From the NCBI GenBank assembly GCA_014084085.1, contig NPFB01000083.1:36569-100568 (forward strand): DNA of 64,000 nt. The letters are read 5' to 3'. Within the stretch, counting starts at the first letter, position 1. Each line of letters begins with the position of its first letter. A program made the position numbers and the translations under genes. The notes under the pieces are model-generated. The model saw only the letters and a program-made list of their open reading frames with translations, was not told the DNA's origin and searched no databases. Positions 20,596 through 64,000 of the stretch are shown piece after piece. This DNA comes from Hondaea fermentalgiana (lineage: Eukaryota > Sar > Bigyra > Thraustochytrida > Thraustochytriidae).

Positions 20596-20628
20596 ATGAT
20601 CAAGACGCTCTTCTTCACCACCCTTGCT
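20334..20628. repeat. Degenerate 21-bp minisatellite, about 14 units
   Basis: Units start at 20334, 20355, 20376, 20397, 20418, 20439, 20460, 20481, 20502, 20523, 20544, 20565 and 20586; the last is 22 bp. The consensus is close to CTATTCTTCATCATCAAGAC plus one G. The first four units differ by few bases and later ones are more diverged. In one plus frame a unit reads LFFIIKT; on the minus strand it reads as LMMKNGV-type heptads. The array runs into the start of the rhomboid gene. Confidence 0.9.
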
Positions 20629-21630
20629 CGAGCAGGACTCCTTCCTCGTGGGACGCGGCGGCCTGCTGCACGTTGCACGGCGAGCAAATTCAAGCCAGGT
20701 TCGCGCGCGGGCGCGGCGGGCGGGCGGGCGGGNNNNNNNNNNNNNNNNNNNNNNNNNNNNNNNNNNNNNNNNNNNNNNNNNNNNNNNNNNNNNNNNNNNN
20801 NNNNNNNNNNNNNNNNNNNNNNNNNNNNNNNNGGCGGGCTGGGGCTGGCGGCGCGGGACGCCGCTGGCCTGCGCAAGGGCGTCGAGACCTTGCGCGCGGG
20901 CCCGCCGACGCCGGTGCTAGGGGGCGCCGGGTGGCTTCGAGGCGGCTTGACGCCGGCCAGGGCCACGGCGACGAGGCCGCAGCTTGCGCCGCTGTCGAGG
21001 TCTTTCTTCGGGGGCTCGCGTGGCGCGCTGCAGGATGAAGGCAACCTCATCGTTGGGCTCATCGGCGCCAACGCAGCCGTTTTCGTCATGTGGAAGACGC
21101 TCAACCCGTTCTTTATGTATCAGCACTTTACGTGCACGCCCGACGGCGTCTTTCGCTCGGCGCGACTCCACACGCTGCTTACGTGCACGTTCTCACATAC
21201 CGACATCTGGCACCTTCTCGTGAACATGATGGGCCTGTATTATTTTGGGGCCGGGATGCTTGCGTACGTTGGTCCACGCGCCTTTTTGACAATGTACTTT
21301 GGCTCCGCGATTGCATCCTCTCTCGCGCAAATCACGCAATCCTACTACGAGCGTCGTCGTACTGTGCTTCTCGGTGCCTCGGGCGCCGTCAATTGTTGCG
21401 TCATGTTCAACGTGCTCATGAATCCGCGAAGCACAGTTCTTATCTATGGCGTCATTCCCGTTCCCCTGGCTATCTTTGGTATCTTCATCATGTTCCAAGA
21501 CGTCTTTGGCGCGGTCAGCTCGGCGCCTGTCGCCGGAACTACGCGCATTGGTTACACAAGCCATCTCACTGGTGCTGCCTTTGGAGCGCTCTGCTTTTTG
21601 ATCACTCGCGGCAGGAGTAGAAGGTTTTGA
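20596..21630 (+). CDS. Rhomboid-family intramembrane serine protease, probably mitochondrial (PARL/Pcp1-like), interrupted by an assembly gap
   Basis: The downstream part is secure. After the gap come a basic segment, NLIVGLIGANAAVFVMW (TM1), HTLLTCTFSHTDIWHLLVN with the rhomboid H-xxxx-HLxxNM pattern, GPRAFLTMYFGSAI, LLGASGAVNCC with the catalytic Ser codon at 21379-21381, and YTSHLTGAAFGAL with the catalytic His at 21562-21564. The upstream part is uncertain. The 100-N gap at 20733-20832 has conventional length, so its real size and frame are unknown. The candidate start at 20596 (MIKTLFFTTLARAGLL, then Arg-rich) would make a plausible mitochondrial presequence, but it overlaps the 21-bp minisatellite. 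Mitochondrial location is inferred from similarity to the PARL group and the Arg-rich leader. Confidence 0.82.
   Translation: MIKTLFFTTLARAGLLPRGTRRPAARCTASKFKPGSRAGAAGGRAXXXXXXXXXXXXXXXXXXXXXXXXXXXXXXXXXXGGLGLAARDAAGLRKGVETLRAGPPTPVLGGAGWLRGGLTPARATATRPQLAPLSRSFFGGSRGALQDEGNLIVGLIGANAAVFVMWKTLNPFFMYQHFTCTPDGVFRSARLHTLLTCTFSHTDIWHLLVNMMGLYYFGAGMLAYVGPRAFLTMYFGSAIASSLAQITQSYYERRRTVLLGASGAVNCCVMFNVLMNPRSTVLIYGVIPVPLAIFGIFIMFQDVFGAVSSAPVAGTTRIGYTSHLTGAAFGALCFLITRGRSRRF
20733..20832. other. Assembly gap of 100 N
   Basis: Exactly 100 N, the conventional placeholder for a gap of unknown length. It is flanked on the left by a GGCGGGCGGGCGGGCGG run and on the right by GGCGGGCTGGGGCTGG, so very GC-rich sequence probably broke the assembly. 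Confidence 0.99.
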
Positions 21631-48073: not shown

Positions 48074-51000
48074 TCATTTTACGTTGGGTGTGGCGAGTGC
48101 GACCTGGCGCACGAACTCCCAGGCGGCAGCAGCACCAGCAATATGAGGAAGCATGGAGGGTCCCCGGCCATAAGATGGAATGGCGACATTATCGTCGAGC
48201 AGTTCGGCCACGGCCGGATCCATTCCAGAGGGCTCATCAGCGATGACAAGAACGGAGCGCGGAGAAAAGCTATAATCTCCCAAGCACGTCAAATCGTTAT
48301 TGCCTTGGTGCAGACCGACGAGACGAGCACCTTGTGCACGCTCTTGCGCGAGGAAACCGGGCAACTGGAGACGAGAGACGGCTTCGATGGGCATCCAGAG
48401 GCCCGCAGACAGCGTGACGGCCTTGAAGGTGTCGAGACGCAAAATGTCCAAACTGTGGACGATAATCTTGGACACTGCAAAAACCTCGCAGGTGCGGACG
48501 AGCGCAGCAATGCTTGGCAAGTTGTTTTCGAGCAGTGTACACACCACCACGAGCCCACTCGCGCCGGTGCGAGGCTTGTTGGACTGCGCAGACTTGCGCA
48601 AGAGCTGGCGAGGAAAAACTGCATTTGCGCCCGCCGCGCATACATTGGAGAGTCCGAGCATCTCGTTCCATGCGTTTGGATTGATTTTCGCCTGGATGTT
48701 GAGAGCTGCAGCGTCATCTTCATTTGCTTGCGCAGCATCGTCCTCAAAGTGACGCTTAGTCTCATCTTCGGTAACTTCACGATATCCAATGGGTCGAGAG
48801 GTTGGTTTGGTGGCAGTATTGTCGAAAAAGTTTTCTTCAAAATCAACCGTGATACGCATCGAAGTCGCCACGAGAATCTGATCGCCCGTGGCGGTGAATT
48901 CGAGCATGTCGCGATGATAATGAAAGGAGGCAGCCTCTGATGGATTGAGGGGCAAGAGGGTTTTGTCGAGAAGCTCTTGCGCCAGCGTGTCGAGCTCGCG
49001 TGCGCTAGCGGCGAGCGTCTTTGCAGTAGCGTCCCATGTTGCAAGACTGGGCGCGCAGCGACGTAGAACCCAGTGGGCCAGAGACCGCGTAACGACCCGA
49101 GGTCGGGTCGCCCAGGGCAAAATAAGAACGGCAAGCCGGCGATGGGCATCGGTGATGCCGTCCCATGCAGAGTCTAGCTCCTTGACGACGAGAGCAGTGA
49201 TTACCATTTTGGACGTAACGCTTGTATTGCGCGAACAGGCCACATCGCCCAGCGAAGCGTACAGCTCGGGCAGGCAGGTCTCGGGTGCATTTTTAACGAG
49301 TGCGGTGACCGCGAGCTCAAAATAGCAGCGGTGAAAATAGGCGAGACGTTCGTCATTGCTCATAATGTGCAACAGTGTTGCACAAAAGTGAGCGGCCTTT
49401 ACAGGGTCGGCAACGCGGCAGGATGCCGCAGCAACGGCCTGCACGATTCTGAATTTTTGCAGAAATTGAGGAGAAAAGGCATGATTGTACTGTCCACCGT
49501 TGAGTGGACTCGTTTGCAGCTGCTCGAGCGCGAGATCAACAAAGGCCGCGCACCATGCAGGCGAGGCACGATCTTCGATAAAGGCCAAGACGTGGTGGCG
49601 CGAGACGGCAAGCGGATGGGTGAGATAACCATGCACATGGAGAAGCGTCTGATCTCCTCGGGTCCATGACTCGGGCGAAACGAATTCCATCAGTGCTGAA
49701 GAGGTCGAGACTGTCTTGTCAATCGCCGAAAGATGCTCGATGGCCTGGGCGCAAAAAGGAAGAGCGAGGTCAGGATCTTCCCAAAAGGCATTGCCAAAGA
49801 CTTGCGCTGCGAGAGGATGCGCATTGGCACGGAGCATGGCGTTCCATAATCTTGGAATGACATTTGTGCTCATGGCCTGCGCACGAAAACACGCCGGTTG
49901 GAAAACAGCTTGGCAAAAGGTGAGAATGAGCGCCGGACTTCGCACAGCAGAGACTTCAAGGGCCGCTTCAAGTGCCTGCACGAGGACATCCGGATCAGAC
50001 ATGCCAGTCGGAAGTTGTCCCTCGAGGCGGTGCAGACTGGAACCAAGCACACGGTAGCATGCTGGCAGACACGAGTGGTGCGACTTGACCGTGCCGTCCA
50101 GAGCAGCAATGGCCAGTCGACTTGCGAGTGACGTGTTCATTTCGTTTGCGTCTTGAATCAGTGCGTCAAGGCACTCCCAAAAGGCAGCTTGCGCTCGGCG
50201 TTTGAGGAGAGCGGCCAAATCACCCCCTTTGCGATCGACCTGTAGACTGGCCTCCTGATCGAGAAGAACAGAAATGAAGCGCTCTGCTTCGGCGCCAAGC
50301 GGTCGCCACGGGCCAATGAGAGCGTGGATGATGAGAACTGCTTTGCTTACTTGCATGGCGTTTTCCTCGTCTGCGTTGGCAACCTGCGTAGAAAGCCACT
50401 TCATGGCAAGATCTTGCAGGGGGAGCGTCGTGGCGTTCGGGACCATGTTTTGACTGACGAGTCCTTTGATTGCATCGAGAGCAGCGAGCAAGGTACGAGC
50501 ACCCTTGGCATCAGTCACCTTGGCTAGCTGGGCGCACCACATGATGAGATCGCTTGCGATGGCAATGCCATCGACGACGAGATCTGGGCGCACGGCAGTC
50601 AAGGCGCAAGCGTTGGCCTTGCCCTCGACAGATGCATAGGGATTGGCGTAAACGCTGCAAAGAGTTTCGTGCAAAGCTTTTTGAATTGTATCAAGAGAGC
50701 TGGGCGACTGGCTCAAGAGGGTGCAAACGAGACCTGCTCGTTCCCCATTGAGTAAAAGCTTGGCCGAGCTGCTGTTTGATGTGTCTTCACCATGTAAGAA
50801 AGCTGTAAGTTGGCGTGCAGCGGCGCTGCAGAATTCCTGTGTGTTTTGGTGTTTCAGTTGTCCCCCGAAGAAAATATTTTGAAAAAAGTCACGTTAGTTC
50901 CAAGGTGTGCGTCATTGTGTACAGTATTTTGTTTTTGCTTTTTCTTCCCGGGTTTGCAAGCACGCGCGTGCGGTCAGCTTAGATTTTGCATCACTAGACC

Positions 51001-52794
51001 TGCAACCAAAGTCAAGAAAGATCCGTCGGTGACAGGAATTGTCAAAAGTATCTGTTGCGCGCGCAGACGATCTCGCGACTGCGAAAGCGCTCTGCGCACA
51101 GCCCTCATTCCGCACGATTTTGCTATTTGTGTGCGTGTGTGTTGTTTGCCACCACTATTTGTGTCGCCGACTTTGATGACGATGAAATAAAGAAAAAAAA
51201 GAAGGCAAGAAAGTAAGAAAGAAGAACGTACCATGGAGGAGGCGGCCCAATGGGCTAGGCGAAGCATGGATGCTTCGGATGCTTGCCAGATTTCAAGCAT
51301 TTGGAGAAGGGTAGCACAGGCGAGCTGATGGGGCAAGGCATGTTTGACGAGCGCATCGATAAGATGGTCGTGCGCCAGGCGGAGACGACCGAGCATGCCA
51401 AGACCACCAAGTCCGCCAAAGCTGGCGGTAATGAATTCGCGCAATGCGTGAACTTGTGCATCTGCGAACCACCCCGGTGGCCCCTCGAGCGATGCGATGG
51501 CCTTTGCAAGCACTACAATAAAGGACGGATTGAGTGGCCCTTCCATGTCAGGAAGTTTGGAGAGCAAGGCCTTTTTGCGGGCCTCATTCGTTCCGGCCCA
51601 CGAGCGAAGTAGGCAAATTGTAGGTGTTTCCACGTCGCGAAGGGGACCCGTCTTTCCAGAACTATCATCAAGTACAACGGACTTGTAAAGCTCTTTGAGA
51701 CGTAGCGCTGGGATGATGACATTAAGCACGAATGAGTCTGAAAAAGTAGCGGCCGTCTCGTTGTTGACGTCTTCTGTCAGAAAGGTGGTGAGCACATACT
51801 TTGCGATGGCGCTATTTTCGTGCGTCGTGGCAAGATGGAAGAGGAGCTCAATCCAGGGCCAGCGGCTCTCGTTGGCGTCTTGCAAGAGACGACGCGCGAT
51901 GCGCCACACGGCCTGCACATGGTGAACGTCGCGCTCTCTAACGCCAGCGTAGACGCGTAAAAAGTTGGCCCACCATGTCTTGTCTGTGTCTTCCGCATCC
52001 ATGGCGGCAATGAGCCGCTCCAAGATAAATCGGCAGCGGCGCTGATGCTCGGCTGAGGACGTTGGGCCGAGTCCGGAGTGGACCTGATCCCAAATCGTCT
52101 TGTCGCCGAGGAGTGGCGCTGCGCTGCAGACACCAAGGACGCCAACGAGCGTGGCAAGATTGTGGCGCGCCGCGTGAAGCAGTCGTGACTGGTGCTCGGT
52201 GTCGGCAAAATGCACAACGCGAGGAAGCAGTGCATCCAAGACGGCTTGTTGGACCGCTGGATGGGCCTCGAGGGTCGGTGCATCGAGGAGGCCAACACAA
52301 AGGTCCATCATTTGGGCGAGGAGATCTGGCGAGGAGGCGAGATCCCTAGGGCGCGCATCCAGGAGCATGGCGAGTGCCACGAGGTTGGCAGGGTCAGTGT
52401 TCCGCGAGGGCAGGCGTAGCGGCGAGGGCTCAATTCGAGTCATGACAGGGCGGAGACTTGACATGGCAAAACTCCAGTCGTCGGCGCTAAGTGGGCTCTC
52501 GGGCACCATGAAGCAGCGCATCATGATGGTCAAGGCATCTTGAAAATACTTGACATCTGAGACACTGTCTTCCAAGGCGACCAATGTTAACGCCGCGACC
52601 TCTGCTGGATTGTCATTTTCGAGCGCTGCGTCGTACTCGTCGTCGTTGTCAAGATGTAGTAGCGCCACGATCTCCTCGAGACTCGAGATGCTCCGTTCTG
52701 GGCTCAGGTCTGCGAGAAGACGCGCCCCACTGACGGCGGTGGCAAGGTCTGTGGCGACCTTTGCCGCACGAAGCGCCTCGCAGGCCGTCTGCAT
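48074..52794 (-). CDS. TARBP1/Trm3-type tRNA 2'-O-ribose methyltransferase homologue, two exons
   Basis: Exons 52794-51232 and 50836-48074 (minus strand) give 1441 residues. Exon 1 and most of exon 2 form alpha-helical (armadillo-like) repeats without close motifs. The last 160 residues are a SpoU/SPOUT domain: LVVVCTLLENNLPSIAALVRTCEVF, VSKIIVHSLDILRLDT and VTLSAGLWMPIEAVS, close to TARBP1/Trm3, which make Gm18 in tRNA. The motif-1 Arg is kept. The knot motifs are altered: the usual NEREG is ADEPSG (Glu kept), and the usual SLN-V/H is SMLPH. AdoMet binding or catalysis may be changed. ATG 52794 is the first in frame; a TTG six codons earlier is ignored. No upstream ATG precedes the in-frame stop. 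Confidence 0.82.
50837..51231 (-). other. Intron of the TARBP1-like gene (395 bp)
   Basis: On the minus strand exon 1 ends ...WAASSM at 51232, followed by donor GTACGT. The acceptor ACACACAG ends at 50837, and exon 2 resumes EFCSAAARQLTAFLHGED in frame from 50836. Both junctions are phase 0, and the frame then runs uninterrupted to TGA 48074. Reading into the intron gives a hydrophobic stretch that mimics a membrane anchor. Confidence 0.82.
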
Positions 52795-53130
52795 CGCGCA
52801 AGCACGTGGCAATTTTGGCCTAGCCGAGTTGTGGCGCTCCAGGTGCCGAGCGGCTGGTCCTCGGTTTCCTTGAGGAACAAGGATTTGCTAGCTTTGCGTC
52901 GAGCGCGAAGCCCTGGATCTTGAAGTTTTTACTTGAGTCTTCCTTTTGGGCGAGCCGCCGCCGCCGCCTCTCGAGTCGGAGCTCGCTGCCGGCAATCAAT
53001 CAATCCATCAATCAATCGGCTGCCCAACGAAGGTGAGGGGAAGGCGCGGTGGTGGTGGCAGTGGTGGTCGTCGTCGTCCAGCTCGTCGTCACCGTCGTCG
53101 TCGTCGTCGAGCCGTAGCGTCGGCAAGAGG
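52795..53130. other. Divergent intergenic region, TARBP1-like / BUD31-like
   Basis: Shared upstream region. (ATCA)n-like repeats lie at about 52996-53016 and (GTC)n at about 53065-53112. No gene is seen; the in-frame extension upstream of the BUD31 ATG is Ser/Trp low complexity. Confidence 0.5.
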
Positions 53131-54012
53131 ATGAGCAAGTGGGGGCGACGCAAGGCGAGGCCTCCTCCGGGGTTTGAGGACGTGGAGCCCACGCTTACGG
53201 CGCTCGAGGATGAGCAACGGCAACGCATGGAGGAGGAGGTGGCGGGCATGAGCAAGGCAGAGATTTTGTGGCCTGTGCACCAGATTAATTGGCAAAAGTC
53301 AAGGTACATTTACAAGCTGTATTACAAGTACGAGCGCATCTCCAAGGCAGTGTATGACTATTGTCTGGACCAAAAGCTCGTCGACAAGGCCCTCATTGCC
53401 AAATGGAAAAAGCCCGGCTACGAAAGACTGTGCTCCACGTATGTAATCAACCCGCGAAACTACCCGTACGGCACCACGGCAGCCTGTCGAGTTCCCTTGA
53501 GCCAGCGCAAACAGGGAAGCTCGATGCGGGACGCCACGACCGGTTGCCGTGGATGCGCTTCGGGCGCTGAAGGGTATTCGAACATTTTCGGCAACAAATA
53601 TGGTCAGGATCTGGCCAAATTACAGATTTTGCGCGAGCGCTTCGAAGCGAAACAGGACGCTATCGAAGCAAACGCCAAAAGGTCGGCCCAAGACGATGCG
53701 CTTGATGCCGTTAGCAAGAGCCGTCCCACGTGGGCTTCAGAAACACAGTCCAAGGTTCTCGAGCTGGAAAACGACAAGGATGTAGATGATGATGGGACGC
53801 CAGATGACGCGGATGACACTGGAAAATTGGATAATGAGAACGAGGTGGCGACGTCCGTAGAAAAAGAGGGTGTTTCAAGCGTAATAGAACAAGAAGAGCC
53901 AACCGCAAACGTTGCGAAACAAGATGCAAAAGATCAGGAAGAGGGCAAAGCCGTGGAAGAAGAAGAAGAAGAAGAAAACGCAAGTGCTTTGAAGCGTCGC
54001 AAGGTTGAATGA
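53131..54012 (+). CDS. BUD31: BUD31/G10-like spliceosomal protein, divergent, with long C-terminal tail
   Basis: ATG 53131 gives MSKWGRRKARPPPGFEDVEP, matching the BUD31 start (basic, then PP-x-G-x-x-x-x-EPTL); 293 residues in all. The core to about residue 148 follows BUD31: EILWPVHQINWQKSRYIYKL, YKYERISKAVYDYCLDQ, DKALIAKWKKPGYERLC, YGTTAACRVP and GCRGC. The family is about 144 residues and has nine conserved Cys forming zinc clusters. Here only four align (one in ERLC, one in AACRVP and two in GCRGC); the rest are Ser, Val, Ala or lost. A tail of about 145 residues, Lys/Glu/Asp-rich and ending KRRKVE, is extra. BUD31 is a core component of the catalytic spliceosome. A second, canonical copy may exist elsewhere in the genome. 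Confidence 0.82.
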   Translation: MSKWGRRKARPPPGFEDVEPTLTALEDEQRQRMEEEVAGMSKAEILWPVHQINWQKSRYIYKLYYKYERISKAVYDYCLDQKLVDKALIAKWKKPGYERLCSTYVINPRNYPYGTTAACRVPLSQRKQGSSMRDATTGCRGCASGAEGYSNIFGNKYGQDLAKLQILRERFEAKQDAIEANAKRSAQDDALDAVSKSRPTWASETQSKVLELENDKDVDDDGTPDDADDTGKLDNENEVATSVEKEGVSSVIEQEEPTANVAKQDAKDQEEGKAVEEEEEEENASALKRRKVE

Positions 54013-54155
54013 AGCAAAATGTTCGAGAGAGGAGGATAAGGTAGTGCGCATCTGGCAAGCCTTCTTTCCATCGTGTCATATCTTGCATCGACCCACAAGG
54101 GGGACGTGTGAGACGTAAAGAAGAGTGTAATTTCCGTTTGATAAATCTATTCTTG

Positions 54156-56369
54156 TCATTTAACGCGAGATACGATGGGGGCCAAGGCCATGCACTGCAC
54201 GAGCATGGTCCGAAGGCCTGCAAGATCCTCTGCCTCGACGCCCTTGAGCAAATCGTTGCGATCGTGAGCAATCTCCACCTCTTCAAGCGCAGCAATGAGA
54301 GTGGCTGCGTGAGCAGCAGAAAGTTGGGGACGCCGCTGTGACTCAAAAAAGACCTTTTTCAATAACGGGACGCAAAAGGATCGAGGTACAAGATTTGCAG
54401 CAAAGGCATCAGCAAGCTGTGCCGTTGCTTGCGAGTACGCACTTGCCAAAATTTCGTCATTTTGATCCGCCTCATCGACGTGTGCATTGACGTTGGCTCG
54501 AGCAGCGCGAATGGTCTCGTGAACGGCACGGTAGCGCGCAAGAAAGGCGAGAGCATCGGCCTTGAGCGTCTGCGTGAGCTGAGCGCTCGCCGCCAAATGG
54601 TCTACCAGAGCATCGAGAACGTCGAGACGCGAAACGGCAAAAAGTCGCGCAAGCATGCGCTCGGCAAGCTCCTGCTCGCCATAGGTTGATGCCCACACGA
54701 GCGCATTTGACAAGCCCTGCAACCCATTGTCGAGACCACCGCGGAAACGCCACCAATGCATGATGCGCTGACGAGCAAGCGAAGAGGCACTGAGGCCCAT
54801 CATTTGGCAGCCCTTGGCAAGACGGTGGCAAAATCGATCGGATACGGGACGTTGCAAGTCCACAACGGCTTGCATGTGCAACAGACCGAGCGGTAGCTCC
54901 ACGCCAGGTGGAACTTGCACCTTGCGCGTGAGCGCGCTAAGATACGAGGCGGTCAGACGCCAGGCGCCAGGGGCCAGGGCCGCGCGGTCGCTTTGCTGGC
55001 CGCCAAGACCTAGACTTGCAGCATATTCGAGCACAAAGAACTCGCGAAGATCAACCTCGAGATCGCCAAGCAAAAAGTCGTCCGTCTGCAAAAATCCCGA
55101 AGCCTCAATCGATGCTGGGTCCATGACGGTCTCAAGCGCACCACAACGCGCGAGAAGTTCCGCGAGATGCGCAGTGACCCATCGATCACCCACAGTGCTA
55201 TGGAGCTGCTGGAGAATCCCTGGTGCATCGAGATTGACGACGGTGAGCAAAAGATGAACGCGAGCATCGACCTCGAGGTCGAGGGCGTCGATACTTTGCT
55301 TGACCAAGGCACCGAGCTCTTGTTTGCGCGCTGCCGTCACATGATACTGGAGAAAGCACGCCACGAGATGGTACCAGGAATCCTTTTCGGCATCAATCCT
55401 GCGAAGCGTAACTTCGACGTTGCCGAGAATGAGTTGAAGAAAATCTTGCAATTCGGGTCCCACCTGAGCCACCGCAGCGGCATAGTCCCTTGCAAAGACC
55501 TGCATGGCTTCCCGCCAGCGCATCCACCGCGCCTTGAAGTCAATCATACTGTCAGGATCGGCTCCCATTTCCGCGCTCCTCCAAAGCTCATAATCGGCAT
55601 CGCGCACAACGTCACCTTCCTCATCATTGAGTCCTCTTCCCGAGACGGCTCGCCGAGGCATGGCCAAGAGTAAAGCGCGGAGCTCATCGAGCATGGCGAG
55701 AAGCGCATCATCGGCAGCGCTGTGCACACTATCCGGCTCAAGGAGACGCAAACACCGCCACGCCGCGAGAAGATCGCCGCGGATGGCACAAGAAAAGACT
55801 TCTTTCCAGTAGTATCCAGATTCGATCCCGCGATTCTTGACGTCAAGCTCGCCAGTGGGATCTCTCCACGGACCATGCTGTGCAACCCACGATACGAAAT
55901 CACTCGCTACAAGGGGCTCTGGGTCGAGGATGAGAAGCTCTGTGAGGTGCCATGCGGCAGCGGCGTCCTTCATGCGCTCGAGATAGCCCGCCCGAGGGTC
56001 ATCCTGGCGCTTGTCTACTGCTGCCTCGAGCGTCTGCACCGCACGATCCAGCTCGCTGCGCAGGTTTCGACTGCACGCAAGCACGTCGGCCCCGGCGTCT
56101 TGAAGCGCGACAAATTCGCGTTGACCGGCGGCCACAAGTCGCCGCATCTGCGCGGGTGTCTGGTCCCATGAAATAACGTGCACAGTGTCGGGTTTCTCGA
56201 CGCGATGCTCATTCTCTACGCGTTCCTCCGCGAGGCCGGCTTTCGCGCGGGCCTTCCCCTCCTCGCGCTGCGCCGGCGTCAGCCGCCCTCGGACTTGCGT
56301 CTTGAAGACCACGAGCTCGTCGCCACGGCCCCATCGGAAGCCCACCAGTCCGCGCGGCCGCCGCTCCAT
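54156..56369 (-). CDS. NUP85: Nucleoporin NUP85 homologue (Nup107-160 / Y-complex)
   Basis: ATG 56369 (MERRPRGLVGFRWG) gives 737 residues, in the range of NUP85; an in-frame TTG 87 codons upstream is rejected. Diagnostic stretches match the family in order. They are YYWKEVFSCAIRGDLLAAW, FKARWMRWREAMQVF, LQLILGNVEVTLRRID then DSWYHLVACFLQYH, WVTAHLAELLARCGAL and DLREFFVLEYAASLGLGG. QRIMHWWRFRGGLDNGLQ lies further on, before VWASTYGEQELAERMLARLF. The protein is alpha-solenoid throughout. NUP85 sits in the scaffold Y-complex of the nuclear pore with SEH1 and NUP43. No partner gene is in the window. It is convergent with the BUD31-like gene, 143 bp away. Confidence 0.87.
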   Translation of the reverse strand: MERRPRGLVGFRWGRGDELVVFKTQVRGRLTPAQREEGKARAKAGLAEERVENEHRVEKPDTVHVISWDQTPAQMRRLVAAGQREFVALQDAGADVLACSRNLRSELDRAVQTLEAAVDKRQDDPRAGYLERMKDAAAAWHLTELLILDPEPLVASDFVSWVAQHGPWRDPTGELDVKNRGIESGYYWKEVFSCAIRGDLLAAWRCLRLLEPDSVHSAADDALLAMLDELRALLLAMPRRAVSGRGLNDEEGDVVRDADYELWRSAEMGADPDSMIDFKARWMRWREAMQVFARDYAAAVAQVGPELQDFLQLILGNVEVTLRRIDAEKDSWYHLVACFLQYHVTAARKQELGALVKQSIDALDLEVDARVHLLLTVVNLDAPGILQQLHSTVGDRWVTAHLAELLARCGALETVMDPASIEASGFLQTDDFLLGDLEVDLREFFVLEYAASLGLGGQQSDRAALAPGAWRLTASYLSALTRKVQVPPGVELPLGLLHMQAVVDLQRPVSDRFCHRLAKGCQMMGLSASSLARQRIMHWWRFRGGLDNGLQGLSNALVWASTYGEQELAERMLARLFAVSRLDVLDALVDHLAASAQLTQTLKADALAFLARYRAVHETIRAARANVNAHVDEADQNDEILASAYSQATAQLADAFAANLVPRSFCVPLLKKVFFESQRRPQLSAAHAATLIAALEEVEIAHDRNDLLKGVEAEDLAGLRTMLVQCMALAPIVSRVK

Positions 56370-57100
56370 TGCTTGCACCGCACCTCCGTGGCGCGGCCTC
56401 GTCTCGCGAGCCCTGGCGCGCGCGCTTTCTCCTCCCGGACGAAGGCGCTCTCGCGCTGCGCCGCGTGAGCGATCAGCTTGAAAGATTGATTGCAAGCGAT
56501 GATTGTAGGCAGGCAGGCAGCTAGGCAAGGCCAAAATCAAAGGCGCGCCGTTAGGGCGCAAGGCGGCATCATGATTGATTGTGAGACCATGCGGCGCGCG
56601 GATCGATGGAGGGCAATGAAGCAGTGTCAACGAGACGAGGCGAGGCGCAGGACCCTTCTCGTTTGCTGCGGAGACGGGGTCGAGGCGCCAGAAATGTCAA
56701 CTAGTACATTGACATTATCGAAATTTTCAGAGAGAATCGCAAATAAAAGAACATGCGCGCGTCTTCACCGATCAGCTACAAATCGAATTTATGATCCAGC
56801 GCGACAACAGAAGAGCGATCTTCGTAGTGGTGTGATGGCAACACCTCCGAGCTCGTGCTCATTCCTAACCGGCAACCGACCAAGCAATAATGTGGAAACC
56901 AAACCCCTGATGGCGGTTTGCCATGATGCGATCAAGTCGAGCGAGCACGATGCGACGCAAAAAGGGACAAGAGGAGACTGGGTTTTTCAGATACAAGGCT
57001 CCATTGCGCTGAAGGGCGGCTTGAATTGCAGGAATGCTGTTGAAGAGGCTGCGTTTTTCAGATGTTGACAAAAGAGTTAGCGGAGTCAATTTACATGCAA
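56370..57100. other. Intergenic, upstream of NUP85
   Basis: This is the NUP85 leader, then GC-poor DNA. A minus-strand frame near 56865-57089 (NSIPAIQAALQRNGALYLKN) could be a worn C-terminal piece of the adjacent leucine-rich-repeat pseudogene. No intact gene is seen. Confidence 0.4.
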
Positions 57101-57595
57101 ATAGTGTGGCCTCAGAACTTGCTCCAGCTTGAGCAGCGATTTGTTCCCATCGAAGAGGGTTGACAGCTCCTCGACGCCCTTAGTCTTGATTTTAGTTTCC
57201 CAGAGACTTTGTTTGCATATGAAAGAAAGCAACAACACTGTTAGCGGCATTGGCGTGCGTGTGCCCGTACTGGTCAGTTCACCATACTCAACAATCTTGC
57301 TTCCAACTTACTTTAGCGTGTGCAGCGACTCACTGTCGCGAGTGCATCTGCCAGTGCTGAGGCGCCCGCTGAGCAGATTTCATCCGTTCCCAGGCTGTAT
57401 ACCGCATTTACATGTTAGTGTTCCCTCGCTGCTGGTCGAGCCATTCGAGGCATTGTCATCTTCCCACTCGGGCCGCCGCTCACTAGGCCTACAACACGCG
57501 CAGCGTTCTTTTTTTGTGAGCGCTGTCGCCAGTGCCGTCGCCCCCTCTGAGCTGATCTTGTTGCGCACAATACTGCGCGAGACAAAATCCGTTGC
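57100..57595 (-). pseudogene. Broken leucine-rich-repeat (ribonuclease-inhibitor type) gene
   Basis: Minus-strand frames between 57595 and 57100 contain at least four LRR units of the NxIxxEGAxALAxAL type in order: VRNKISSEGATALATAL (about 57575-57520), EICSAGASALADALAT (about 57385-57330), SKIVEYGE (about 57300-57275) and KIKTKGVEELSTLFDGNKSL (about 57195-57135). They lie in different frames and are separated by stops (a TGA after QPGNG, a TAA after SLHTLK), so the gene is dead. The unit length and sequence are like the NLRC3-type LRR proteins common in protist genomes. No intact parental copy is in the window. Confidence 0.7.
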
Positions 57596-57772
57596 GTCAA
57601 TGTGCGCGTCCTCTGGATAGGTTAGGTCTTCTCAATGACCTTGAAGAAACTTCTCTGGTGTGACTCGGAGGTCAGTAACTTTTAGATTTTTTCTCACTTT
57701 CATAGTGGTAAAGATCATTGTAGTAGGCTATAGGCCCTTTGCACTGGCAACCCCCTGGAAGAACATTGTCGT

Positions 57773-57813
57773 CAATCACCGCTGACCAAAGTCCAATCAC
57801 CGCTGACCAAAGT
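57773..57813. repeat. 21-bp direct repeat just upstream of the GREB1-like gene
   Basis: CAATCACCGCTGACCAAAGT occurs at 57773 and again at 57794, separated by a single C. It ends 38 bases before the ATG at 57851 and could be a regulatory duplication or a slip-strand event. Confidence 0.9.
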
Positions 57814-57850
57814 TATCCAAGTCGTTGAGCTGCCCTGAGATGGACAACCC

Positions 57851-60800
57851 ATGACAATCCAGAACTTCAACTTGCTGTTGCGCGCGGAGGTGGAGTCTTG
57901 GTTGCAAGAATACGCGAACGCCATGGCGAGCGGGGGCGCGAAGGCGCAGGAGGACGGCTCCAGCCGGCCTCTTGTGCTCGTGCTCAACGCGAGCCCGGCA
58001 ACAAGCTTCGAAGAAGAGGTCGGGAATAGTCCAGAGGCTTTGATTGCGCTTCAAGAGAAGGTCGATTTCGAGGCGCTCTCGCAACTTTTACGGATCTGGT
58101 GGATTCCGAGCGCGGAGGAAGACGATTTGACGGAGATCGGGCTGGACGACGTTGCTGGTCTCAAGAGAAAGTACTCGAGTGTACAAGGCCTGGAGCTCTT
58201 TGCGCTTTGCCTCAGCGCCTTGATGAGCGATCCTGCATCTACATTGCTACAATGTGAATCTGATCATCAAAGAGCTCGGATCAGTGCATCTCCTGACAAC
58301 GAATATGTCGCGACAGCTCTCAGAGATCTTGCAGCAAAGTCGCTCTCAGCTCCAAGCCGGCACTCTTTACCACCGCTTCGACAGCTTGCAAAAATGGCTC
58401 CTCGTTTTATCGAATTAAAAGACTCTGATGATTTGCAAAGTCAACTGCAGGCAGAATTGTTGCGAACGAATACGCCCGAAATTCGCATTATACTGTTACG
58501 CGATGCGGACAGCGCTTCTACGCAGAGTGTTCTGCTCGTGTTCACATCCGAAACTGCTCAAAAAGTTTGTGGGCTTCTTGAATCAAGTCAAAGTAGCCAG
58601 GAAGAGGAGAACATCAATGACGAAGCTGACGACGATACAGAAATTGATGGCGACGAACCATTCGATCGGCCTGTACAAATCGTCTTTGTCGTAAACAGCT
58701 CAAATGAAGAAGTGAATGGTCAGGAAGGAACCATCGAGCTCATTCGGCCTTGCTTCGAGATCAATCTGGAACGGCGTCAGATACTTGCGGAGAACCTGCT
58801 CACTCCCGAAGACGCACACGCAGAGAGAGCGTGGGAACAAGTGACTCGCGAGATTGCAAGCTTTGGCTTGCCTCTTGTGGAAGACTTTCGCGAGCATATC
58901 TCAATGAAGCTTGACGAAGAACGTGACAACGACCTTGACGGCGATGACGAAAAACCGTCGCTGATGCGTGCCATGTTGCACGTTAAGAGCGATGCCTTTC
59001 AGGAGCAGCGCGCGCTTTGTCAGCAGATCGGTACGCCACAGCCTGATGTTGCGCATCCTGAGCAACGCGAGGTCGCCGAAGAGATTTTCCGCAAAGCCGA
59101 GCAGGTCCTCTTTGGTCAAATAGACGCAGACTGGACGTCCAAGTTCAACAGCGTCTCCTTCGTCGTGCTTACACCAAACTTCAACTCCCTGCAGTCGCAG
59201 ACTGCAGACAGAGTCACACGCGCAAAGCTCGAGGGCGGACGCGTGCTCAAGCACACCAAGGTGCCGCATGCGGCTATGGACGCGCATCAAAAGTGGATGA
59301 AAGAGGAGGTCAAGAACCCAAAGACTCTCTTTGTCATCATCGCTGACGAGTGTCACTTTGCGCCGACGAAAGATGGCGCGCACGACTGGCTTCTCAATAA
59401 CCCAGCGCTGAATGGTGAGAATGTGCTTCGCTTGCTTGTATCTGCAACGCCGCAGAACGTACTTTCTAAGGCTTCACGGGTTGCTAATAGTAACATCGTT
59501 CGCTGGTTCAAACCGGCCTCGATGTACCGCAGCATGGACTACTACGTCGAGACGGCGACGTGGGCGGTACCGAGTTACGTACGGCCGCTGAGACTCGCTG
59601 TCAATAGAAAGATTTATGATGTAGACCCACGTGTGACCACGCATGAAGGTTACGCATACCGATATCCGATGCACGACTACAAAGCGTTCTGCAGAGTCTT
59701 CAATCGCAGGGTGCAGAAGGAGCTAGGCTCGAGCTTGGAAAACGAACTGATTTCGGTTCAAAGTGGCAAGGAGCATTTGCTGCTGGTCGTTCCTTGTGAT
59801 GTTGACCTCGACTTTGACGACAACTTCGACAAGAAGACGGGCTTGCTGTACTGGCTCGGTTTCGGAAAAGATCGCATACGCATTCAAACGGCGCGTCAGA
59901 CGGCAATGGGTGATGGACGCAAACAGTACTACAGAGTAGGCGCATTGGGTATCTCACTCTTTTGCGATACAGCCGAATACAACGAGGTCGTGGACTGTCT
60001 TCCACGTCGAAGGCAGCGTGTACTCAAAGATGAGGCCTTTGATATCGTACGTGGACTCGCAAACAGGTCGTTTGGCAAGCGAGGCGCCCCCAAGCGTAAG
60101 CAAAAGGGAATCAAGGTGGCCGAATCAACTCCTCTCTATGATGGTCACATCATCATGGCAGACTACCTTCTCTCGCTCACATATCTTGCGGTGTATCGGG
60201 TTGACCATGACAATCTCTGGAACAGAGACTTGAGCCGCAAAGATATTTTCGCACCACTAGGGAAAAACGATGTCAAGGGACTTGCCCTTGACGATGAGAA
60301 GCTCAAGGCCTTTGCTCTTCATCTTGGCTTTGCAGATCGAGTATGGCCGAGTGTTGCCCACGAAACAGAGAAAGAAGTGGGGTGCTTCAAGATCGCTGAT
60401 GGCGTTGAGGAACCCTCCGTTCAATACCTTCTCAAGATTCTCCTCGAAGCGACCGTAAGATCAGCATGGTCTGAATTGAGCAACCTGGACGTGGCCGGAT
60501 GGAAGACCCTCACGAGACGGCTCAACACAGAATGGGTCGAAGAAGCAAAGAGTCTTGCAATAGCAGAAAATCATGATACGCCTGCGCATTGGCGATTCGC
60601 TTGGCAGTATGTCATCTCTGAGAAGCTGGAACGCAACCGCGAAGATCGCACGAACTTGCAAGGCAACACATCCCAGTCGTGGTACAACGAGACCGATCGT
60701 CTCTTGCACGACCTGCTCGACGTCCATCCCAAGTACAGAACAGGACGCATGGCTGTCATTCGCGTCTACGAGACGGACGAGAACCTCTCGATACAAGATT

Positions 60801-63800
60801 GTCTCCGCAGCGCACTGAAAAAGCTAGGGCTCACTAGTCACGACCACGGCGGCCTTCTTAGCGTTGTTGCAGACGTTGGTGGCAGCGATGGAAAGAAGAA
60901 GCGCACGTCTGAGGGCAAGGTGGTGCAGAAGGTTGCCCGACGCGCGACAAGTCTTTTCACCCAGCTCGAGACATGGACGCTGACACGTGACCTGCGGCAT
61001 CCTTCCAAACAGGATGTGGCGGCAACTGAGCGCGAGACCATTGTTGACCGCGTGAACAAGTCTTTTGCCGAAGCGCAGGCTCAAGATGCTGAGGCACGGA
61101 AACATCTCGGAGAAGCGCCTCGTTCTTCACCTTCTAAAGCTGTCCAGAAAACAGCCAAGTACGAGGACCTGGAGAACCTGCCCACGATCGTGATTCTGTG
61201 CGAGAAGGGGCGCATGGGTGACACCTTTCCGCATTCGTTTCGCTTCCTTGACATCCGTCTGCGCTCATCGAAGACGTACTCGACGTTTGTACAAGAGTTC
61301 GGTCGCGTCTGCCGCTACCCAGGCCTCGACTCCAGCAGTGCAGTCACCTTTGAGGTCTCTGAGGAAGAGGAGGGCTGGACGGCGCTTGAACAACAGCTCG
61401 AGCGATTCTTCAAGGATCCTGAAGTGAGAAGGTATTTTGCCAAAGGCGGGAGCTATGCCGTTATGGACCCGGGCAATGAGGTGCGTTTTCACGCCGACTC
61501 GGATTTGCAGCTGAAGTCCGGGTTCCGTACGGCCTTGAGGAATGTCGATGATGGACGGGCACGATTCGGCAGGTGGACAGCAAAGCGCTACGTGCATGTG
61601 CTCCCGACGGTGCTGATGAACGCAGAGAGATACAACGCGCAGCTACAAAAGGCAATCGAGCACAAGTATCATGATGCGGAAGGACGTCAGCGCATTGATC
61701 AGTGCATTCCTGGTCCACTTGATCTATACTTGTCTTCTGGGCCGAGACGCGCTGCCGTAGCATCTCGTCCTCGAGTTGAAACCATTGAAGAAGAGAAAGT
61801 CGTCATCAATCCGATGCATGACATTGATGCTTACCGATCAAGAAGTGCACAAACGAGTCGGCAGATTATTCATTACGATAGCGGGCACAGTGGTGGTGAA
61901 GATCCACGCCGTCTCTTGCTCATGGCGCAGTGCCAGCAGGGCAAGACCGGGACATATCTACATTTCTTGCGTTTACTCAAGGAGCGCGTGGAGCTTGCGA
62001 TTCCAAGCCCTCCTAATGCGCTTCCGCTGGTTCCGCGGGCAGAGTGGACTCTGCCGCACTGGAGGAACCTCATTGTCAGCTCTCAATCGCCCGGCTTTCC
62101 AGCACTTAGGAGCTCCTACGCAATGCCTAAAAAGGGCCAATACCACGTAAGTGTTTTGCAACAACGCACGCTTGCGCTCATGATTGCGAGTGAGAATGGA
62201 TCTGGCTGGTATGAAGCATACCTGAACTACTTGCTTGACGAAGATGGCGAGGCTATTGATTCGAGGGCAGGTCTTGACAAGATTGAAGTGCTAGGTAGGA
62301 CAGTCGAAGGGCTCGGTGCTCCTTTTGATGGTTCTCAGTGTACAAATTCTCAACTCGCATTTGACTGTGTCAGCTTCGACGGTCGGTTTTCTTCTGACGA
62401 AGGAGATACTCTCGCCAAATCGTTTCTCCAAAACGGCACAGCTCAGCTTGGTGAACTTCTAACAAAGCACGCAGCAATCAACCTGCCTACAGGCACATCG
62501 TTGGGACATCGGGTACGCATTGCACGTGAGCACGTTCAACGTCAGCTCTGGGATGCCGCGTGTCGTCGCGGAAGCATGGATCAGCTTGAATTCGGCGGTG
62601 CAGACAGCTTTACGCGGTCAATGCAAGCAGCGAATGCGTATGAGAGCGTCGCTGCTCGATCCACATCGTCAAGCTTCACCGGAAAGTACCACCGCAAACA
62701 ATATGTGGTCACAGACGTCAAGCTTGCAGACGAGGGTGTCTGCTTGTCTGCACCCTATGCTGGTTTCCATGGCCTGAATCTCAAAGCAGATGGTCGCAAC
62801 ATGCAGATTAAGGTCGGGCAGCGCAAGCTCCTAAATGTGAGTCTATCCTCGGAGAAGCGAACCATGAGAACGTTGGACGATGCCACATCCGTTCGTTGGG
62901 TATTCGTGCCCTCGTACAACCGTGCTGGCGTTGCGCTTGTGGACTACGAAAAGGCGATACCCAGAGACGATAGCGGCAAGCCAACGGTCGTGTGCATCGT
63001 GGTCCGGAGTGGCAAGCAATTCGATGACTACGTAGCGGCGTATGGATCCGCTCATCTTATCCTCGGTCTTCCGGCATCGATGGCGTCCAAGACTTCGGAA
63101 GGATCTCGCGTCTTCGCAGAACGAGGTGGCATCGGATATGCTCGGCTGTTCATCCAGCTTGCGGCGCATCAGCTCGGCCTTCCCTGGGTCTGGATCCTCG
63201 ACGACAATGTCGATGTCTGCTATGAGCGAAAGCTTGAGGAGAAAGTCCCGGTAAATGCACTGAGGGCTCGCCCAGATACGTGCACGTTCTCAACGGTTAT
63301 GACAGGCGTCGAGAGTATTGTGCACAACGAGGATGAAGAACTCACCCAAGCGCACCAGCAGAAACGTCTGGAGAAGTGGAAGCCCAATGGGCCCGTGCTT
63401 CGGAAAAAACCAGCTCCCGAAGCGAGCCATCAAAACGCACGTACCAAAGAGGAGCTGACAGGAGGTGCAGATCAGTACGGACTGATTGGGATCCGTCGTG
63501 ACCCCCGGGCCCGTCAAACAGAGTCCGAGCATCCGTTCATGGTCACGTATTCGGTGTACTCGTTCATCTACTTGAATGTCACGAGCACTGTGAACGCCGG
63601 GGTCTTTTTTCCGGTCAAGACGTTTTGGGAAGACGTGGAGTTCAATCACCTGGTTGATGAGGCTGGCTTGATTTGCCTCAAGGTGAATCGCTTCTTTCAT
63701 CACAAAAAGAACCTCAAACTGAATGCGAGAAAGATTAGAGAACGGTCTGCTGCGTTGTCGCCATGCTTTACGGAACTTGCGGAGGCGCTGGATCATTTTG

Positions 63801-64000
63801 GCAATTTGAATGGTGGTCTGAGACCGGCGTCGCTCTGGTCGAAATTGGCGCCAGACTGTTTCGATCAAGACAAGCTATGGGCTGCGGAGTTCCGGAATCG
63901 AATCTCTGGCGGAGCAGATGCGAGGCCCTTAAATGCCCTGCTTACGGTCTTCTTGGAGGCTTCCTCAGAGGGTGCATATAATCGAATCGTGGTGCGAACG
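57851..64000 (+). CDS. GREB1-like giant protein: circularly permuted SF2 helicase plus TAGT-type glycosyltransferase, 3' end beyond window
   Basis: One uninterrupted frame from ATG 57851 (MTIQNFNLLLRAEVESW; in-frame stop TGA at 57836) to the last base: 2050 codons with no stop. N-terminal 430 residues: unknown, with acidic linkers near 251-272 and 350-365. Helicase motifs: Ia LTPNFNSLQSQ (440-450), II ADECH (DECH 499-502), III SATP (531-534), a candidate V region CEKGRMGDTFP (1117-1127), and VI QEFGRVCRY (1148-1156; Gly-Arg and second Arg present). The Walker A, MAQCQQGKTGTYL (Lys1365), comes after motif VI, i.e. circular permutation. Residues about 1678-1990 form a GT-A-like domain: WVFVPSYNRAGVALVDYE, GGIGYARLFIQLAA, VWILDDNVD (DDN 1784-1786) and WEDVEFN. 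This order matches GREB1/TAGT proteins; TAGT relates to the base-J glucosyltransferase. Nuclear nucleic-acid-linked glycosylation is inference. The far C-terminus is not visible. Confidence 0.85.
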   Translation, partial: MTIQNFNLLLRAEVESWLQEYANAMASGGAKAQEDGSSRPLVLVLNASPATSFEEEVGNSPEALIALQEKVDFEALSQLLRIWWIPSAEEDDLTEIGLDDVAGLKRKYSSVQGLELFALCLSALMSDPASTLLQCESDHQRARISASPDNEYVATALRDLAAKSLSAPSRHSLPPLRQLAKMAPRFIELKDSDDLQSQLQAELLRTNTPEIRIILLRDADSASTQSVLLVFTSETAQKVCGLLESSQSSQEEENINDEADDDTEIDGDEPFDRPVQIVFVVNSSNEEVNGQEGTIELIRPCFEINLERRQILAENLLTPEDAHAERAWEQVTREIASFGLPLVEDFREHISMKLDEERDNDLDGDDEKPSLMRAMLHVKSDAFQEQRALCQQIGTPQPDVAHPEQREVAEEIFRKAEQVLFGQIDADWTSKFNSVSFVVLTPNFNSLQSQTADRVTRAKLEGGRVLKHTKVPHAAMDAHQKWMKEEVKNPKTLFVIIADECHFAPTKDGAHDWLLNNPALNGENVLRLLVSATPQNVLSKASRVANSNIVRWFKPASMYRSMDYYVETATWAVPSYVRPLRLAVNRKIYDVDPRVTTHEGYAYRYPMHDYKAFCRVFNRRVQKELGSSLENELISVQSGKEHLLLVVPCDVDLDFDDNFDKKTGLLYWLGFGKDRIRIQTARQTAMGDGRKQYYRVGALGISLFCDTAEYNEVVDCLPRRRQRVLKDEAFDIVRGLANRSFGKRGAPKRKQKGIKVAESTPLYDGHIIMADYLLSLTYLAVYRVDHDNLWNRDLSRKDIFAPLGKNDVKGLALDDEKLKAFALHLGFADRVWPSVAHETEKEVGCFKIADGVEEPSVQYLLKILLEATVRSAWSELSNLDVAGWKTLTRRLNTEWVEEAKSLAIAENHDTPAHWRFAWQYVISEKLERNREDRTNLQGNTSQSWYNETDRLLHDLLDVHPKYRTGRMAVIRVYETDENLSIQDCLRSALKKLGLTSHDHGGLLSVVADVGGSDGKKKRTSEGKVVQKVARRATSLFTQLETWTLTRDLRHPSKQDVAATERETIVDRVNKSFAEAQAQDAEARKHLGEAPRSSPSKAVQKTAKYEDLENLPTIVILCEKGRMGDTFPHSFRFLDIRLRSSKTYSTFVQEFGRVCRYPGLDSSSAVTFEVSEEEEGWTALEQQLERFFKDPEVRRYFAKGGSYAVMDPGNEVRFHADSDLQLKSGFRTALRNVDDGRARFGRWTAKRYVHVLPTVLMNAERYNAQLQKAIEHKYHDAEGRQRIDQCIPGPLDLYLSSGPRRAAVASRPRVETIEEEKVVINPMHDIDAYRSRSAQTSRQIIHYDSGHSGGEDPRRLLLMAQCQQGKTGTYLHFLRLLKERVELAIPSPPNALPLVPRAEWTLPHWRNLIVSSQSPGFPALRSSYAMPKKGQYHVSVLQQRTLALMIASENGSGWYEAYLNYLLDEDGEAIDSRAGLDKIEVLGRTVEGLGAPFDGSQCTNSQLAFDCVSFDGRFSSDEGDTLAKSFLQNGTAQLGELLTKHAAINLPTGTSLGHRVRIAREHVQRQLWDAACRRGSMDQLEFGGADSFTRSMQAANAYESVAARSTSSSFTGKYHRKQYVVTDVKLADEGVCLSAPYAGFHGLNLKADGRNMQIKVGQRKLLNVSLSSEKRTMRTLDDATSVRWVFVPSYNRAGVALVDYEKAIPRDDSGKPTVVCIVVRSGKQFDDYVAAYGSAHLILGLPASMASKTSEGSRVFAERGGIGYARLFIQLAAHQLGLPWVWILDDNVDVCYERKLEEKVPVNALRARPDTCTFSTVMTGVESIVHNEDEELTQAHQQKRLEKWKPNGPVLRKKPAPEASHQNARTKEELTGGADQYGLIGIRRDPRARQTESEHPFMVTYSVYSFIYLNVTSTVNAGVFFPVKTFWEDVEFNHLVDEAGLICLKVNRFFHHKKNLKLNARKIRERSAALSPCFTELAEALDHFGNLNGGLRPASLWSKLAPDCFDQDKLWAAEFRNRISGGADARPLNALLTVFLEASSEGAYNRIVVRT

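Follow-up and report, generated by a model that had tools for sequence, protein, structure and literature searches.

A GREB1-like protein of Hondaea fermentalgiana joins a circularly permuted SF2 helicase to a TAGT-family glycosyltransferase domain

The GREB1-like gene at the contig end

The window considered here is a stretch of 64,000 nucleotides from Hondaea fermentalgiana, a marine single-celled relative of the brown algae (Stramenopiles, Labyrinthulomycetes, Thraustochytrida), and corresponds to positions 36569-100568 of contig C220 in assembly G000 (36.0 Mb, 238 contigs). Its end, 57851..64000 on the plus strand, holds a single open frame for a GREB1-like protein in which a circularly permuted SF2 helicase is followed by a glycosyltransferase of the TAGT family. 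In translation, the frame runs for 2050 codons without a stop from its first ATG at 57851 to the window edge, as the first-pass annotation had stated. Contig C220 (100568 bases) ends at the last base of the window, so that the gene is truncated here by the assembly. The frame is evidently beyond chance, since it is open over 6.15 kb, encodes two domains that score over their cut-offs, and has an uninterrupted second copy, 83% identical to it.

This second copy, on contig C89, bears on the start of the gene. The C89 region matching window residues 1-697 holds one TAG; the frame after it has 2530 codons, or 2524 from its first ATG, which places the stop 7 codons ahead of the ATG and inside the region aligned with residues 1-24. 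The C89 protein begins at the residue matching window residue 25, which is also residue 1 of P0003, the C89 gene's public model. Given this stop and the start of the C89 protein at the equivalent of Met25, the true start of the window gene is probably Met25 (57923) rather than 57851. By blastn, the 5' limit of homology to the C89 copy lies at 57787..57850 (plus strand), and comparison of 52001-57786 with that copy gave no match at E 1e-5 upstream of 57787. As the homology is confined to the gene and about 60 bases before 57851, the duplication between C220 and C89 looks gene-limited.

Permuted helicase and GT-A transferase domains

When the window protein was scanned against Pfam-A with hmmscan (E up to 1), it matched two families only, cpSF2-GREB1 (PF20692) and TAGT (PF20691), and an NCBIfam scan of the same protein matched no family. 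The first domain covers residues 400-1385 (59048..62005, plus strand as are all features of the gene given below) and positions 2-711 of the 716 in the profile, with 380 bits and E 3.7e-113 (cut-off 26.2). The second is a GT-A glycosyltransferase domain of about residues 1676-1960 (62876..63730), in which PF20691 matches residues 1684-1798 with 42 bits and E 1.3e-10 (cut-off 27.5). Both matches lie above the curated cut-offs, and the kinship with GREB1 and the TAGT family that had been proposed from the motifs is thereby borne out.

The motifs were followed in an alignment of 104 rows, comprising the five Hondaea genes described below and 99 of 101 other GREB1-like proteins; the faulty public models P0002 and P0004 were excluded, and the C89 gene counts twice (own gene and P0003). 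The cpSF2-GREB1 domain opens with an HPEQ helix, which resembles a Q-motif, and continues with TPNFNSLQSQT (residues 441-451, 59171..59203, read from the sequence), which we take to be motif Ia-like. The Walker B motif (motif II) DECH at 499-502 (59345..59356) is kept in 95 of the 104 rows, the others being gapped (six), partly gapped (one), DECE (one) or DEAH (one), and the SAT of motif III at 531-533 (59441..59449; SATP at 531) is likewise kept in 95, with six gapped and three deviating rows. In the second RecA-like half, GRMGDTF (1120-1126, 61208..61228) is present in 104/104, as is the pattern QE-[FLI]-GR-x-CR of motif VI, here QEFGRVCR with its arginine finger (1148-1155, 61292..61315). 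The Walker A motif (motif I) GKTG, at 1364-1367 (61940..61951) and kept in 103/104, lies C-terminal to motif VI.

The full order (DECH 499, SATP 531, GRMGDTF 1120, QEFGRVCR 1148, GKTG 1364, PSYNRAG 1687, LDDN 1783 and WEDVEF 1926) is the one reported by the first-pass annotation. When the P-loop piece was put back in its ordinary place, the score against ResIII, an ordinary SF2 model, rose from 13.6 to 27.2 bits, and six shuffled controls for this relocation scored 12.7-13.5 bits. This doubling, which the six shuffles do not reproduce, supports a circular permutation in which the P-loop would have moved behind motif VI. The Walker A lysine, the DExH and the arginine finger, as judged from the sequences only, are kept in all five Hondaea copies. 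Foldseek with the predicted helicase model gave no structure match at E <= 0.001, and the helicase assignment therefore rests on sequence; the window protein found weak matches only when compared with sequences of known structure, and a profile search against known structures returned one ankyrin-type match, MIB1, at 0.0033.

In the C-terminal third, where a GT-A fold had been anticipated, the predicted model of the transferase does adopt this fold (mean predicted local distance difference test score, pLDDT, 64.2), with a DXD-like DDN at 1784-1786 (63200..63208). The DDN is found in 99/104 rows (three gapped, one DDD, one DDY), and the WED of WEDVEF, the putative catalytic acidic motif at 1926-1931 (63626..63643), in 98/104 (four gapped, one partly gapped, one WEN). 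The family alignment further delimits the motif GGIGYAR (63125..63145). At the first GT-A strand stands PSYNRA (62909..62926), which is kept in close relatives only: it occurs in 5 rows, versus 57 with PSHDDP. All the transferase motifs named earlier are thus present in the window protein, but PSYNRA, and likewise the HH after WEDVEF (5 rows), cannot be taken as general for the family. Profiles, motifs and model agree with the proposal that this protist carries a GREB1-type fusion of a permuted SF2 helicase and a TAGT-family GT-A domain, with the motifs of both intact.

Copies, public gene models and relatives

Five genes of the assembly match both PF20692 and PF20691, namely the window gene, the C89 gene and three minus-strand genes arrayed in tandem on contig C221 (C221a, C221b and C221c). 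Each of the four copies outside the window is one open frame, of 2524 amino acids for C89 and of 3048, 2572 and 2813 for the C221 trio, counted from the ATG used; in C89:73000-82600, 4113 bases are N. Overall, the window and C89 proteins differ by dN 0.098 and dS 0.266 (nonsynonymous and synonymous rates, Nei-Gojobori), a ratio of about 0.37, and identity between the window protein and the C221 copies is 51-55%, with dN 0.40-0.45 and saturated synonymous sites. Comparison of the coding sequences shows purifying selection between the copies.

The helicase motifs are whole in all five genes and the transferase motifs in four, C220, C89, C221a (with GGIGFAR for GGIGYAR) and C221c. The transferase of C221b is probably impaired, because it has PSFDRA, GPYGFAR, DDD and WEN. 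This degenerate copy would suit a catalytically dead scaffold, as passages in reviews assume for GREB1. Such a scaffold is nonetheless very unlikely here, given that four of the five copies look catalytically intact and that the catalytic motifs are kept in these four and in nearly all 104 aligned rows. The named coral proteins in the alignment keep both DDN and WED; a passage of the review PMC11065753 has the metazoan homologues of the base J glucosyltransferase (JGT) predicted as inactive.

The tails of the copies vary. In the C89 tail a module of about 75-85 residues occurs three times; the C221a tail has five more distant repeats, that of C221c one module and a Cys/His-rich stretch, and that of C221b a Cys/His-rich stretch. 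A Pfam scan of the C89, C221b and C221c tails matched no family at the limits used. A Med10 match in the C221a tail (25.2 bits, cut-off 23.3) was judged spurious, as no single stretch passes. As a genome query, the C89 tail found its own gene, C221a and two fragments directly downstream of the C89 gene. Two leucine-rich repeat (LRR) genes, divergently placed, stand beside the C221 cluster, one from C221:190960 onwards (LRR_6, 48.8 bits) and the other at C221:210468-212477 (22.6 bits, slightly below the cut-off of 23.4).

The top three of 99 protein-search matches come from Hondaea fermentalgiana, and each bears the name 'GREB1-like protein'; this label for the window gene is already public and hence not new as annotation. 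One of them, P0002 (2441 amino acids), is 100% identical to the window protein over the 63% of the query that its best local alignment spans, omits in-frame pieces at about window residues 139-257 and 1433-1560, and jumps inside WEDVEF to a second paralogous copy, so that the end of this motif is missing. P0002 aligns at 97% with window residues 258-1432 through its residues 134-1272, and at 81% with window residues 848-1389 through its residues 1641-2226. As read from these alignments, the model in the public record is faulty, being a fusion of two paralogous copies. P0002 and P0004 suggest that further copies may be present in the public assembly, whose versions of the two contigs are listed at 105452 and 107721 bases, versus 100568 and 99810 here. 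By skipping or fusing parts, the public Hondaea models of the GREB1-like family conceal catalytic residues.

Most of the 99 matches are nameless; those named include three from Hondaea, three from brown algae (Pylaiella, Ectocarpus) and 11 from stony corals (Acropora, Stylophora, Oculina, Montipora), and no vertebrate GREB1 is among them or among the named matches of a further search. Stony corals have several GREB1-like genes per species, several of them with ankyrin repeats. One GREB1-like protein among P0011-P0100 has an OTU domain. In a tree built from 32 rows of the 104-row alignment, the five Hondaea genes group in a single clade (100/100), and so do the three brown algal proteins (100/100); the deeper order is unsafe on account of long branches. 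Judging from this tree, the Hondaea copies are a lineage-specific expansion and not proof of ancestry. The ancestral role suggested by the first-pass annotation finds no support, the five genes being a Hondaea-only clade among rows that exclude vertebrate GREB1 and trypanosome JGT. In the Creative Commons-licensed literature of PubMed Central (PMC), no paper was found that links GREB1 with protists or with Ectocarpus.

Phage and viral origins were considered and rejected. A tblastn search at E up to 1 gave no phage match, and 0/66 pattern matches in viral contigs were confirmed as relatives; in both searches, records very near the window's genome may be left out.

The three tandem copies on C221, the C220-C89 homology that is limited to the gene, the single Hondaea clade and the several copies per coral species could also be the mark of a fast-duplicating self/non-self or selfish-DNA system, whose proteins would mark or recognise foreign DNA and whose history would explain the tandem amplification, the shifting tails and the copying of the gene alone. 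The variation of the tails and the LRR genes, divergently placed beside two C221 copies, would fit as well. We regard this explanation as improbable: purifying selection between the copies speaks against it, as does the lack of a relative in viral contigs or phages, and inspection by eye of the frames flanking the C89 and C221 copies revealed no transposase, terminal repeats not having been searched for.

The window neighbours scanned look ordinary and include Nup85, BUD31, a SpoU methylase, a BRCT protein and a double-cyclase protein. On the minus strand at 48074-52812, the SpoU methylase frame and the frame upstream look like one gene in two parts, presumably TARBP1-like. A stretch of undetermined bases (20596-21630) falls within one frame, which we take to be rhomboid-like.

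Possible acceptors and comparison with known systems

Two domain memberships, the permutation, a predicted GT-A fold, intact motifs and purifying selection across five uninterrupted frames are the starting point for the interpretation. We infer activity, nuclear site, donor and target, and consider the protein likely to be a large, probably nuclear, ATP-driven chromatin glycosyltransferase. The circularly permuted SF2 ATPase would engage nucleic acid or travel along it, and the attached TAGT-family GT-A domain would move a sugar from a nucleotide-sugar donor onto the target. This target could be a hydroxylated base in nucleic acid, a tentative assignment, or a serine or threonine of a chromatin protein, which we propose with similar reserve; the remaining chances are divided between unknown targets and no catalysis.

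The chemistry of GREB1 is described in two ways, as that of a domain of DNA-glycosylating enzymes and, in a passage of PMC10908778, as that of a protein O-linked N-acetylglucosamine (O-GlcNAc) transferase. The same passage, citing Shin 2021, has GREB1 O-GlcNAcylate estrogen receptor alpha. The window protein may, by a conceivable but unsecured extension, be a protein O-glycosyltransferase too: its helicase would tether the enzyme to chromatin and its TAGT domain would glycosylate a chromatin protein, as for vertebrate GREB1 and this receptor. Structure matches of the GT-A model include the protein glycosyltransferases POMGNT and LH3, and no TET/JBP dioxygenase scored above the cut-off in the genome, which also favors a protein acceptor. 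However, we know of no steroid receptors in thraustochytrids, and the near-invariance of GKTG, GRMGDTF and motif VI (103-104 of 104 rows) suggests more than mere tethering.

The base J glucosyltransferase is reportedly itself a TAGT. A base-J-like role in DNA is possible, in which the TAGT domain would glycosylate a hydroxymethyl-pyrimidine supplied by a 2-oxoglutarate (2OG)/Fe dioxygenase, perhaps the divergent TET/JBP-like protein FCC1311_083812 or a dioxygenase-like gene near the C221 cluster, but we consider this pathway rather unlikely. A six-frame profile search of the assembly found no TET/JBP dioxygenase above the curated cut-off, although intron-split genes can escape it. One Tet_JBP match fell below the cut-off (19.5 vs 34.9 bits), in a 641-amino-acid open frame at C19:200477, FCC1311_083812, and speaks for the pathway; its family (n = 19, itself included) keeps HxD in 19/19 and the distal His and the Arg in 18/19 each. 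Ten members of this family were scanned: four, FCC1311_083812 among them, matched Tet_JBP below the cut-off, three matched other 2OG oxygenase families below the cut-off, and three neither. FCC1311_083812 (C19:200051-200938) is a 2OG oxygenase, and none of the 19 members collected for its family has a precomputed Pfam domain.

The other candidates are two tandem dioxygenase-like genes, C221:176342-177913 and C221:178436-180232, which end about 1.2 kb downstream of where the last GREB1-like gene of the cluster stops. The latter scores 18.7 bits against PhyH, below the cut-off of 22, and retains HxD; the former, 44% identical to it, matches no Pfam family and is without the His of HxD. A genome search with C221:178436-180232, a query that covers its own relatives and not other PhyH-type genes, returned only the pair itself and no related gene near C89 or in the window, and for neither candidate was a relative of known structure found. 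Furthermore, the single PF00145 methylase gene of the genome search has a CFT motif, presumably the one typical of the tRNA methylase DNMT2, which also counts against the pathway. The weak identification of the dioxygenase pair and its distance of 1.2 kb, together with a tie between JGT and TAGT that stands as reported, lower the odds of the base-J-like pathway and of a DNA or RNA base as target. The modification of DNA bases suggested by the first-pass annotation is thus not supported, with one weak TET/JBP relative and a sole PF00145 gene that we take to be DNMT2-like. That thraustochytrids make a glycosylated DNA base with an ATP-driven enzyme, whose helicase travels along DNA and whose TAGT domain adds glucose to bases that a non-canonical dioxygenase (divergent TET/JBP-like or PhyH-like) has hydroxylated, is a distinctly long shot; if true, a base-J-like pathway would exist in stramenopiles, and DNA glycosylation would be the likely ancestral activity of GREB1.

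Among known systems, the kinetoplastid JGT, known here by description, reportedly shares TAGT membership with the window protein. It is a GT-A enzyme according to a passage of PMC9472816. In contrast, the transferase of the window protein is joined to an SF2 helicase and has no TET/JBP partner above the cut-off. The brown algal GREB1-like proteins of Pylaiella and Ectocarpus have both domains and are 28-29% identical over 64-95% of the query, but one of the Ectocarpus proteins has an HMG box at its end, whereas Hondaea has tandem copies with other tails.

GREB1 itself is a human breast-cancer cofactor. In likeness to animal GREB1/GREB1L, the window protein agrees with the coral GREB1-like proteins in its two Pfam domains, in their order and in the permuted order of the motifs, vertebrates being outside this comparison. 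It differs in belonging to a protist, in its other tails and in its intact motifs, whereas passages in reviews call the GREB1 helicase inactive; it also has no additional Pfam domain, and beyond the two shared domains four relatives scanned gave an HMG box and ResIII only. What Hondaea offers is a well-suited test case and not a system of a new kind: with several motif-complete copies and a natural copy with a changed transferase site, it makes the chemistry of GREB1 addressable without steroid-receptor biology.

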